From positions 3,100,001 to 3,164,000 of the forward strand of contig NC_089450.1 of the NCBI RefSeq assembly GCF_026210795.1: DNA of 64,000 nt, read 5' to 3'. The position numbers and the translations under genes were made by a program. The DNA comes from Rhizophagus irregularis. Lineage: Eukaryota > Glomeromycota > Glomeromycetes > Glomerales > Glomeraceae. Of this stretch, positions 20,428-49,947 are shown one piece after another. The first letter of the stretch is position 1, and each line of letters begins with the position of its first letter. The notes beneath the pieces are model-generated. The model was not told the DNA's origin, did not search any database, and saw only the letters and a list, made by a program, of their open reading frames with translations.

Positions 20428-20550
20428 AAGTTGTCTAAACAAAGAGACCGAAAAAAAGGTTTTAAAATCAACGTTTTGCTGTGGCCGATCACATGATTAC
20501 GACTGATTATGGAATTAGCAAATAGTGTATATTTATTGTATATACTACTA

Positions 20551-21050
20551 AAGGTCGTGGCTGACCTAGTGCACTGGCATGGTGTACCCCTCCTATGATT
20601 GTCTAAGACAGGAATGGAGGACGCAGGTTCGATCCGTCCAGCCAACGGATGCTCTATGAATTATACTGCGTGGGCCTATACCATAGGCCTAGAAGGTGTA
20701 GATCGTAGCCCTAGTGGTGGGAAAGTGCGTAGATCATGGTATCACACCGACTTCGGTCACAACCGTGGTATCAACCAATGGTAGACTACCTCGGTAGTCG
20801 ACACCCAGGGGGAGTAATCCTATCCTGGGCTACCAATAGTGCTAAAGCCTTTACTTTGGTTTATTGGGATGTGATGTCGTGTTAGGGACTCCTCCAAGTT
20901 CGTTGAAAGTACCAGAGTGGCGCTGTCCTCGGGCGGTTTGATTATAGCTTAGTATTAGATAGCGTTCGACTTTTGTTTTATCTTTTGTTCTTGTCTATCT
21001 TTCTGTAATCTTGTTCACGTGGTTTTAAAAATAAAAAATAAAATAAAAAT
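20551..21050 (+). mobile_element. tRNA-derived SINE (500 bp) with perfect 16-bp target duplications
   Basis: The element starts with a tRNA-like RNA polymerase III promoter: A box TAGTGCACTGG (20567-20577) and B box GGTTCGATCC (20626-20635), 48 bases apart. A GC-rich body follows, then an A/T-rich tail TTTTAAAAATAAAAAATAAA. The sequence ATTGTATATACTACTA occurs exactly at 20535-20550 and 21051-21066, marking retrotransposition by target-primed reverse transcription. The tail resembles that of the LINE at 48323-49547, the likely supplier of the machinery. The body is much GC-richer than its surroundings and has no coding role. Confidence 0.85.
20567..20635 (+). promoter_or_regulatory. RNA polymerase III A and B boxes of the SINE
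   Basis: TAGTGCACTGG fits TRGYNNANNNG and GGTTCGATCC fits GGTTCRANNCC apart from one missing base. Flanking sequence does not fold into a complete tRNA, so this is a tRNA-derived promoter and not a tRNA gene. Confidence 0.7.
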
Positions 21051-21066
21051 ATTGTATATACTACTA

Positions 21067-47926: not shown

Positions 47927-48322
47927 GCTTTGAAGTATGAAATAAATTATGTAAGACGAAATTAAATAATAAAATGACATGGAATTGACAAAATATTATT
48001 GCTTCATTGCCATAAAATATTCAATTAAGTTTATTAAAAATGATATTTAATTAATTACTATGTACAAATTAATAACAAATAATAATCATTTAATAGCAAA
48101 ATTATTTTTTAAAAAAAAGTTAAAATTATTAAACAGTGAATTTTTTTAAGTTTCTTGTTCTCCGTTAAAAATAAATTCTCTGCTAGCTGGTTAGTTTCGT
48201 GGGCGCGGTTTGTGTCGATCTTCACCATATAAGGAATAAGTGACATTTAAGTGTCACTGATCACGTGCAGTCACGAGTTCAAAAACATTAAGTATCTGAG
48301 GGACTTAGTTTTTTTTAGTGCC

Positions 48323-49547
48323 GAATATATGAGAAAAACTCTTTCTCCTTTCCGTCTGGAATTTTATATTCCGCAGTAATATTATAAAGATTAACCCTTA
48401 AAAACCTTTATATGCTAAAGAGCGTACATAGGTGAGCCCTTTCTGGGCTCGGCGGAAAGGCGAGGTTTGATACCTTACCAGACTACACTCTTTTACACCC
48501 TTATGAACGAAAAAAACTCGGACTTCAACCTTATTCTCAACCCTCCCAACTACGAAAAGATTCTTTTCGGCTTTAGAGAAGAGCGTCTTTTACACAACAA
48601 ATTTTTTGTCTTTCAACTAAGGTTCTCCAACCCAGAAAATATTCTTAAAAAGAAGATAACTTCTTTACACCAAGTCTCTTTACACCACTTGGAACTTTGG
48701 ATAGAAGACTCTTTCGTCCAAACTGACGACCACTCTTGCTTCGAATTCTTGGCGTTGGCATGGTCTCGTGCTCAGCAAGACAATTTTCCTTTTTTGGATA
48801 CATGCAACGTGTATTTTAATTACAAAGATATCCAAACTACACCAATTAAAACTCACGCTACACTAACCAAAATTTTCCTTATCGGGATTAACCTTCACGT
48901 TGACAAGAATCTTCCAGATATTTGGGCAAGACAGTCACGTGATATAGATAAAATTTTTTCTAAGGATGATATATATTCCTTATGGCGTTGGTTATTATTT
49001 CATGACACTTCTGGTTTAAATAAAGGCTCAGGAGTTACCATCATGATTACTGACAAAATAGCAAAAGATTTACAACATACAGAATTTCTCGAAGGACGTA
49101 TCATCAATCTCATCTTCGGTTTTAAGAAATCAAATTAACTGAACGTGACTTGCTGCTACTTACCACCTAGCCCTAAGATAGACATTACCAAATTTAAAAT
49201 CAGCGCTATTTGCGTCAATAGATTTATTTTTTTATTTTTTTTCTTATTTGTTTTTTTTGTTTTTATATAGATATACAATAGTTCTATAAACATATGTCTT
49301 TGACATTAGATAGTTTATTTTTATTTTTTTTTACGTTTCCACTAGTGCTATTAGGCGGGTGTTCTTGGGAAAGTTCTTGGATCTGACTCGTGTTCACCTA
49401 TATCCATAGAGGACAGAATTCGTCACGCTTCGGGGTGGCTTGACGTGTAGTGATAGAATTACATATAGACTCATTTTTATGCTGTCAGCGTAATTGAATC
49501 TACCGTTTCGCTTTTCTGTTTTTTAAAAATTAAAAATAAAAATAAAA
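48323..49547 (+). mobile_element. Internally deleted LINE with perfect 17-bp target duplications
   Basis: TAGTTTTTTTTAGTGCC occurs exactly at 48306-48322 and 49548-49564. Between them lie a GC-richer leader, an open reading frame (48503-49138), a 3' untranslated region and an A/T tail TTTTAAAAATTAAAAATAAA. The open frame ends within an endonuclease-like domain and no reverse transcriptase follows, so the copy lost its middle. It was inserted into the MITE at 48194-49612. Confidence 0.85.
48503..49138 (+). CDS. LINE protein fragment, start of apurinic-type endonuclease
   Basis: From ATG 48503 the frame gives 211 residues (MNEKNSDFNLILNPPNYEK...). The C-terminal part has IFLIGINLHVDKNLPDIW, RWLLFHDTSGLNKGSGVTIM and EGRIINLIFGFKK, the pattern seen in the exonuclease/endonuclease/phosphatase domain of non-LTR retrotransposons (GVxIxI...GRxIxLxF). 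The TAA at 49136 is followed in the same frame by TCCYLPPSPKIDITKF, the next strand of such a domain, so the stop is probably a secondary mutation. Codons end in C more often than in host genes. No cysteine-rich RNA-binding or reverse transcriptase part is present. It is not expected to be functional. Confidence 0.65.
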   Translation: MNEKNSDFNLILNPPNYEKILFGFREERLLHNKFFVFQLRFSNPENILKKKITSLHQVSLHHLELWIEDSFVQTDDHSCFEFLALAWSRAQQDNFPFLDTCNVYFNYKDIQTTPIKTHATLTKIFLIGINLHVDKNLPDIWARQSRDIDKIFSKDDIYSLWRWLLFHDTSGLNKGSGVTIMITDKIAKDLQHTEFLEGRIINLIFGFKKSN

Positions 49548-49947
49548 TAGTTTTTTTTAGTGCCAAAAATTTATTTGTCACCCCATGACACAAAAAACCA
49601 CGCCCACAAAACTTGGGTGCGACTTCACAGTCAAATGATATTTCTAGTGTTTCTTGACCACTATTTTGAAGTTTCTCACACGCTGCTTACAAAGTATTTT
49701 CAACACTAATATTTGCTGCCTGCCATAAAACCTTGAAAAATTCTTCCTGTTTATTAAAATATTGCTGAGGTCCACTTTGTCTTGTAATTCCTAACAATGT
49801 TAACATAGATCGCAATTCTTCTCTATTAACACCTCAAACCAAAGCAGTATCTGCAAAATATTTGGAAAAATCATCTTCTGGTCTTTCGTTATGATATTCA
49901 ATTTCATTATAACACAATAAGCATTTACTTGTAACGCAAACTCCGAT

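Follow-up and report, generated by a model that had tools for sequence, protein, structure and literature searches.

The window analysed here, a stretch of 64,000 nt, covers C22:3100001–3164000 of the Rhizophagus irregularis assembly (146.7 Mb in 32 contigs; L and C numbers denote loci and contigs) and has a GC content of 23–29% in 4-kb steps. Three elements lie nested within one another. The outermost, on the minus strand, is what remains of a decayed coding sequence from a repeated gene family; it occupies 49621–49914 before the MITE and resumes after it at 48142–48193 (ASREFIFNGEQE, where the frame was chosen by eye). Both pieces can be assigned to a single repeated family, for which the genome gives 30 matches at E ≤ 1, counting the two in the window. 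Its nearest relative (L089 on C11, 52%) is continuous across the point at which the MITE lies, in agreement with the original prediction that the pieces form a single family; for the second piece, which is short, the match (ASREFIFNG) was made by eye. At the MITE site the window lacks some five to ten codons that the related copies possess. The description of this gene as 'transposase-like' was not confirmed, a 533-aa coding relative having no Pfam match at E ≤ 0.1.

The MITE is split into a left part (48194–48322) and a right part (49565–49620, ending CCCACAAAACTTGGGTGC). As had been proposed, the joined halves (177 nt) can be aligned over their full length with the reverse complement of a related copy at 2399–2578 that lies in the opposite orientation. 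The alignment has 117 identities in 192 columns and a score of 141, far above that of shuffles (51 ± 8.6, maximum 76 of 300). A genome search with the rejoined MITE gave 41 rows, window included, from the best 40 of 106 candidates scored. The best uninterrupted copies match the rejoined halves over 1–177 at up to 94%, and ten besides the window cover this span at 90–94%. In the 13 copies whose structure could be parsed, which excludes L090, the MITE is 185–207 bp long with ends GCACNNNN-GTTTYGTGG, and its 9-bp target duplication agrees at 9/9 positions in seven, 8/9 in four, 5/9 in L095 and 1/9 in L101 (offset by one). The uninterrupted copies mostly end GGGTGC, followed by the 9-bp duplication, and carry 8 extra terminal bases (GCAC plus four variable). 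The right end of the window MITE is therefore at 49620 and not, as first given, at 49612. On the left side neither the outermost 8 bp nor the 9-bp duplication can be recognised, and this end is truncated or decayed. A 9-bp target duplication is the rule for MULEs. The family resembles Mutator-like MITEs in this duplication and in its terminal inverted repeats, although here it is known without a linked transposase.

The two MITE halves are separated by an insert that is flanked, as first noted, by an exact 17-bp target site duplication, TAGTTTTTTTTAGTGCC. The first copy (48306–48322) and the second (49548–49564), both on the plus strand, are the sole two occurrences of this 17-mer in the 146.7 Mb, and its reversed control pattern has none. 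Among 14 uninterrupted MITE copies taken from the 41 listed rows for an empty-site check, 13 contain one target-like 17-mer and L098 contains none (up to four errors allowed); the copies with one such 17-mer represent the empty site of the insert. The three-level nesting is borne out by the 17-bp duplication, the rejoined MITE halves and the read-through of the coding family at C11, and the order of events can indeed be read from the duplication, the MITE alignment, the coding family and the empty-site copies. Together they support an order in which the coding repeat came first, then the MITE, and then the retroposon.

The 1225-bp insert and its twin

The innermost piece had been taken for a LINE, a reading that is ruled out by the lack of a reverse transcriptase. 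The unit (48323–49547, plus strand) is a duplication-bounded, chimeric and non-autonomous retroposon of 1225 bp whose sole long ORF is 211 aa. Like a LINE it has an A-rich 3′ end and a target duplication of the kind that varies in length (17 bp here), and like a half-LINE it shares its 3′ end with an autonomous LINE (the LINE B tail; LINE B and LINE C are working labels). It is set apart from SINEs, which lack coding capacity, by the ORFs of its relatives, with dN/dS of 0.20–0.36.

All parts of the insert are read on the plus strand, and q denotes a position within its 1225 bp. Between the duplication and the head lies a short leader ending in A (48323–48337), which is unlike the leaders of other parsed copies. 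The structured RNA head follows (48338–48468), with helices P1 and P3 recognised by covariance model R1 at 45.1 bits (E 8.4e-8). The ORF (48503–49138) is composite: residues 1–164 belong to an orphan retroposon family, and residues 165–210 are a piece of the LINE B endonuclease that corresponds to residues 115–160 of LINE B ORF2 (80% identity over 46 aa). The LINE B ORF2 endonuclease fragment itself extends over 48996–49219 (q674–902, 82–90% to L002–L004). The remainder (49220–49547) consists of a T-rich stretch, the last LINE B ORF2 codons, the LINE B 3′ UTR and an A-rich tail; ahead of this segment a deletion has removed about 5 kb of the LINE. This tail (q955–1219) is 91% identical to L002 and 93% to L008, and the genome 3′ rows span 69–93%.

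Both junctions can be placed by comparison with other loci. Three loci match the insert over q12–675 only, at 68%, and all stop at q674–675; a fourth matches at q600–675 only, at 79%. Seven LINE loci hold both q674–902 and the 3′ piece (q955/1031–1225), which in them lie 4.9–5.3 kb apart. The joint of the roughly 5-kb deletion is near q897, where 'TC' is shared; splicing was rejected as the source of this deletion, no GT donor fitting the joint (both by eye). The insert is thus a chimera, the first ~674 bp coming from a small protein-coding retroposon and the rest from two pieces of LINE B, a LINE in which reverse transcriptase and RNase H domains are present (L002–L004).

A near-complete twin was found by genome DNA search at C6:327856–329067, matching q14–1225 at 98%. 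It is bounded by a duplication of its own that differs from the insert's (AAAAAATTTAGA as found by program; by eye up to 18 nt if the A-run is counted) and is therefore an independent insertion, so that the chimera has moved at least once. The two copies diverge by about 2%, and the ORF of the twin is frameshifted.

LINE tails and the origin of the chimera

One and the same RNA head stands ahead of two orphan protein families that are not related to each other, one of about 211–244 aa (small ORF) and one of 590–720 aa (large ORF), and units of both kinds end in more than one type of tail. Small-ORF units carry a LINE B tail in the window and in L001, and a LINE C tail in L005, where the final codons of LINE C ORF2 (SLRPRIT) close the ORF. 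Duplication-bounded large-ORF units have a LINE B-type tail in L104–L107 (82–85% to the insert's tail) and a LINE C-type tail in L109 and L113 (86–87%), as also in L021, L022 and L023. Within 3 kb downstream of the 63 large-ORF copies tallied, at least 4 LINE B-type and at least 15 LINE C-type tails occur. Judged by these similarities, the tails of the head-bearing retroposons stem from at least two LINE lineages.

Unit boundaries were accepted where an exact duplication of 11 bases or more adjoined the A-rich end. Such a duplication was found for 12/20 heads (12–19 bp) and not for the other 8, and in a further ten loci it was found for eight (15–19 bp) and not for two. L023 has two candidate ends, giving 2523 and 2873 bp. 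In the duplication-bounded copies the leader between duplication and head varies from about 2 to 28 nt, mostly ends in an A-run and often starts with G; a transduced flank, untemplated addition and cap copying are candidates for its origin.

The window also contains a SINE-like unit without an ORF (20551–21049), which has a LINE C-type 3′ tail (95%), a B-box-like GGTTCGATCC at 20626 and an exact 17-bp duplication, TATTGTATATACTACTA, at 20534–20550 and 21050–21066. As this unit has a LINE C tail and lacks an ORF, mobilisation as such does not require one.

The joining of the two parts probably occurred at the RNA level, the LINE reverse transcriptase switching templates from LINE RNA to retroposon RNA. 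A less likely alternative is recombination at the DNA level, in which a small retroposon was joined to a deleted LINE copy and the chimera was retroposed later. The insert junctions share about 0–2 nt (by eye), which is compatible with end joining, and non-homologous recombination was considered the more likely origin by the authors of the hybrid Drosophila SIDEs, in the part of that account consulted here (PMC3414825). However, both ORF families carry tails of two LINE lineages, which favours a recurrent process of RNA and reverse transcriptase without proving it. The SIDEs combine the 5′ module of one element with the 3′ end of another (R2/R1) and seem to move by means of the machinery belonging to the element that gave the tail; they lie in rDNA and have the R2 ribozyme, for which self-cleavage was shown, directly upstream of R1 3′ sequence, no ORF being mentioned (PMC3414825, same part).

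The structured RNA head

The head pattern, with up to 3 mismatches, occurs at 98 places in the genome against 25 for the reversed control. Nineteen of the 98 were loci already included; of the other 79, 51 were sampled by eye, mostly for likeness, and 28 were left out. Model R1 was built from 8 loci on P1 and P3; at a threshold of E ≤ 0.01 it finds 45 of the 51 sampled loci, in a few cases only in part. Compared with the window head, L005 and L006 score only 24–25 bits, and in L007 an R1 match to the head was not found at E ≤ 1.

The alignment comprises 59 heads, with L005–L007, L030, L054 and L080 left out, and is fitted to P1 and P3. Across its 57 distinct rows 98.0% of the P1/P3 cells pair, a value that falls to 41–52% when the strands are slid by 1–3 columns. 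Both sides have changed in 10 of the 16 pairs, again in an alignment fitted to these helices, and this was reached by 0/500 shuffles. Helix P2 lies outside the model. Its cognate strands score 15.54 over 41 unique pairs, against 13.38 ± 0.40 when permuted (0/20000), and 14.30 against 12.68 ± 0.50 when reduced to 23 helices (36/20000 permutations); kinship among the head copies lies outside these covariation and permutation statistics. P1 and P2 cross, and the fold is therefore a pseudoknot, which covariation supports for the head family and which is not clear in the window copy. There P2 scores 7, and no such pairing forms in the 12- and 14-nt stretches that were tested; a post-hoc candidate further out (AAAGAG/CTCTTT), noticed by eye, was left out of the count. 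In L052 and L062 (C16:377782, C2:1776192) a different P3 hairpin (GAGGCC...GGCCTT) is found with the P1/P2 layout unchanged. The L030 head (C1:6127417) has lost the P1 3′ strand; a different sequence follows, in which no long ORF of either family was seen.

A full head shared with an autonomous LINE was sought and rejected, LINE C having about the first 10 nt only (ACTCTTTCCG; model E 0.012 and 0.07). Autonomous LINE C (L083:3478, L084:3511) starts with this pyrimidine-rich sequence as the heads do, and the 5′ end of L003 (LINE B) follows it less exactly. We take this start to resemble a TOP/TCT initiator.

In HDV ribozymes a P1/P2 pseudoknot has P3 placed between its helices. The head shares this topology, with a P1/P2 pseudoknot that encloses the P3 hairpin, and like the Pr77 or R2 heads it stands at the element's 5′ end; if it were an HDV-like self-cleaving ribozyme, it could free that end. 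This identity is nevertheless improbable. Rfam gave no match above chance: none at E ≤ 1 for the heads of four loci, only sub-gathering matches (best E 0.43) in 14 head loci, nothing above gathering in the window, and no HDV-like family among the matches of the heads. By eye no P4 helix is seen between the 3′ strands of P1 and P2, and about 10 nt plus the variable leader stand 5′ of P1. Pr77 is a conserved structured 5′ RNA common to several families, the trypanosomatid L1Tc/ingi and their non-autonomous relatives, and in this respect the present head is alike; as far as the consulted part of its description goes, Pr77 is of the HDV-like type and stands at the front of autonomous L1Tc as well (PMC4035085), while here LINE C shares the first 10 nt or so alone.

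Orphan proteins, selection and mobility

A tblastn search with the L005 ORF gave 16 small-ORF matches at 14 loci, three of them weak (E 0.007–0.03). Six small-ORF loci were parsed as duplication-bounded units of ~1.1–1.2 kb, the window copy and its twin among them. The large-ORF units are ~2.2–2.7 kb long. Here 75 rows were obtained from the best 65 of ~467 first-look candidates scored (a rough count), and the tally of 63 copies leaves out two extra C14 pieces and the last ten rows, which are second pieces of counted copies. In the matched part 38/63 lack a stop, and the frame reaches at least 600 aa in 28 of those 38. The large ORF shows no blastp similarity at E ≤ 1 to the small ORF or to the LINE B/C ORFs. 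Known relatives of the orphan ORFs were found neither in Pfam (E ≤ 1, which includes the 211-aa window ORF) nor in PDB sequences (E ≤ 10) nor in IMG/VR, and the best match in PHROGs had E 0.06. A single-sequence AlphaFold2 model of the window ORF (pLDDT 36.8) is useless.

An ordinary internally deleted LINE, whose ORF would be the LINE's own ORF1 left after removal of ORF2, would account for the large internal deletion and the LINE 3′ end that are both present in the insert, and has precedents in HAL1 and TRE5-A.2. It is an unlikely origin. The comparison of the insert ORF with ORF1 of LINE B and LINE C, the two LINEs compared, is unconvincing (best E 0.016 with 23% over 85 aa for LINE C, none for LINE B) and disfavours it, q1–674 has no match in L002–L004, and L006 and L010 are separate duplication-bounded units of the ORF family in which no LINE coding sequence was recognised. 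HAL1 (half-L1 of mammals) is a non-autonomous LINE derivative that lacks ORF2 and encodes only ORF1p, and TRE5-A.2 of Dictyostelium likewise lacks ORF2 and is mobilised in trans by the ORF2 protein, according to the sections consulted (PMC5753468, PMC5391098). The insert resembles both as a non-autonomous LINE derivative without ORF2. However, HAL1 and TRE5-A.2 derive from their partner LINE, while for the present ORFs no counterpart was found in either LINE B or LINE C, and one head goes with two ORFs that are unrelated.

Values of dN/dS were 0.20 for the small-ORF pair L005/L006, and 0.55 and 0.54 for the window copy with L005 and L006, respectively. Among large-ORF copies they were 0.25 for L022/L023, 0.33 for L022/L113, 0.24 for L023/L113, 0.33 for L028/L108, 0.36 for L104/L105, 0.30 for L104/L107, 0.27 for L105/L106, 0.31 for L107/L106, and 0.31 and 0.41 for the two halves of L028/L031; the distant pairs L005/L010 and L022/L028 are saturated. 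These pairs share sequences and are not independent. The five recent pairs (dS 0.03–0.06) lie at 0.20–0.36, with a synonymous excess in three of the five (P 0.0005–0.012, one site share for all). That both orphan ORFs are host genes retroposed repeatedly is unlikely, since the low dN/dS could come from a selected source gene but the five recent pairs still show it, the duplication-bounded copies start at or near one head motif (through which most were found), and they end in an A-rich LINE-type tail, several of LINE B or C.

The favoured explanation is a chimera of two retroelements, which template switching would have made. Directly observed are the two junctions, the target duplications and the twin, together with a head common to both ORF families, tails that differ and low dN/dS. 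Movement of the chimera would be driven by the LINE 3′ tail, which would recruit the LINE endonuclease and reverse transcriptase for target-primed reverse transcription, with the head and the orphan protein acting together in cis and the protein serving as an ORF1p-like RNA-binding partner. The element would thus supply part of its own machinery and borrow the enzyme from the LINE. We consider this explanation as a whole likely. Weighing against it are the missing database matches of either protein, the SINE-like unit that has a LINE C tail but no ORF, the frameshifted ORF of the twin, the dN/dS of 0.54–0.55 for the window copy, the unformed P2 of that copy, the weak or missing R1 matches of L005–L007, and the loci for which no exact duplication was found. 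In the window ORF the C-terminus has been replaced by LINE sequence, and the window copy may therefore be tail-driven only.

A broader proposal, whose chances appear evenly balanced, is that these elements form a semi-autonomous class of retroposons with one pseudoknotted 5′ RNA, two unrelated orphan proteins and tails swapped among LINE lineages. The head would be a packaging, translation or 5′-processing signal read by the element's own protein, the LINE would give only endonuclease and reverse transcriptase, and the window insert would represent one tail exchange that moved afterwards. The nesting in itself is ordinary; what is unusual is a LINE-dependent retroposon class with a selected protein, a folded head and changing tails. 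Precedents cover parts of this arrangement, namely HAL1, TRE5-A.2, the hybrid SIDEs and the Pr77 heads, and nothing in the open-access literature listed by the searches was recognised as describing these elements. Before curation about two thirds of R. irregularis transposable elements were unclassified, and that curation added SINE and several LINE families, as stated in the part of the report consulted (PMC11075540); some head-bearing elements may be listed in its library by different names. For a coding repeat family of some size (~467 first-look candidates, a rough count) the analysis supplies a structure and a partner as well as a mechanism that can be tested, and the question is raised of why tail-driven parasites retain a selected protein gene when the same-tailed SINE-like unit manages without one.

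The internal stops of the large-ORF copies are mostly TGA. Two TGA stops of L021 are CGA in L022, and TGG and CGT in L023; one TGA of L027 is CGA in L105, and a TGA of L031 is Arg in L028. The TGA stops at Arg codons fit C-to-T change at CpG.
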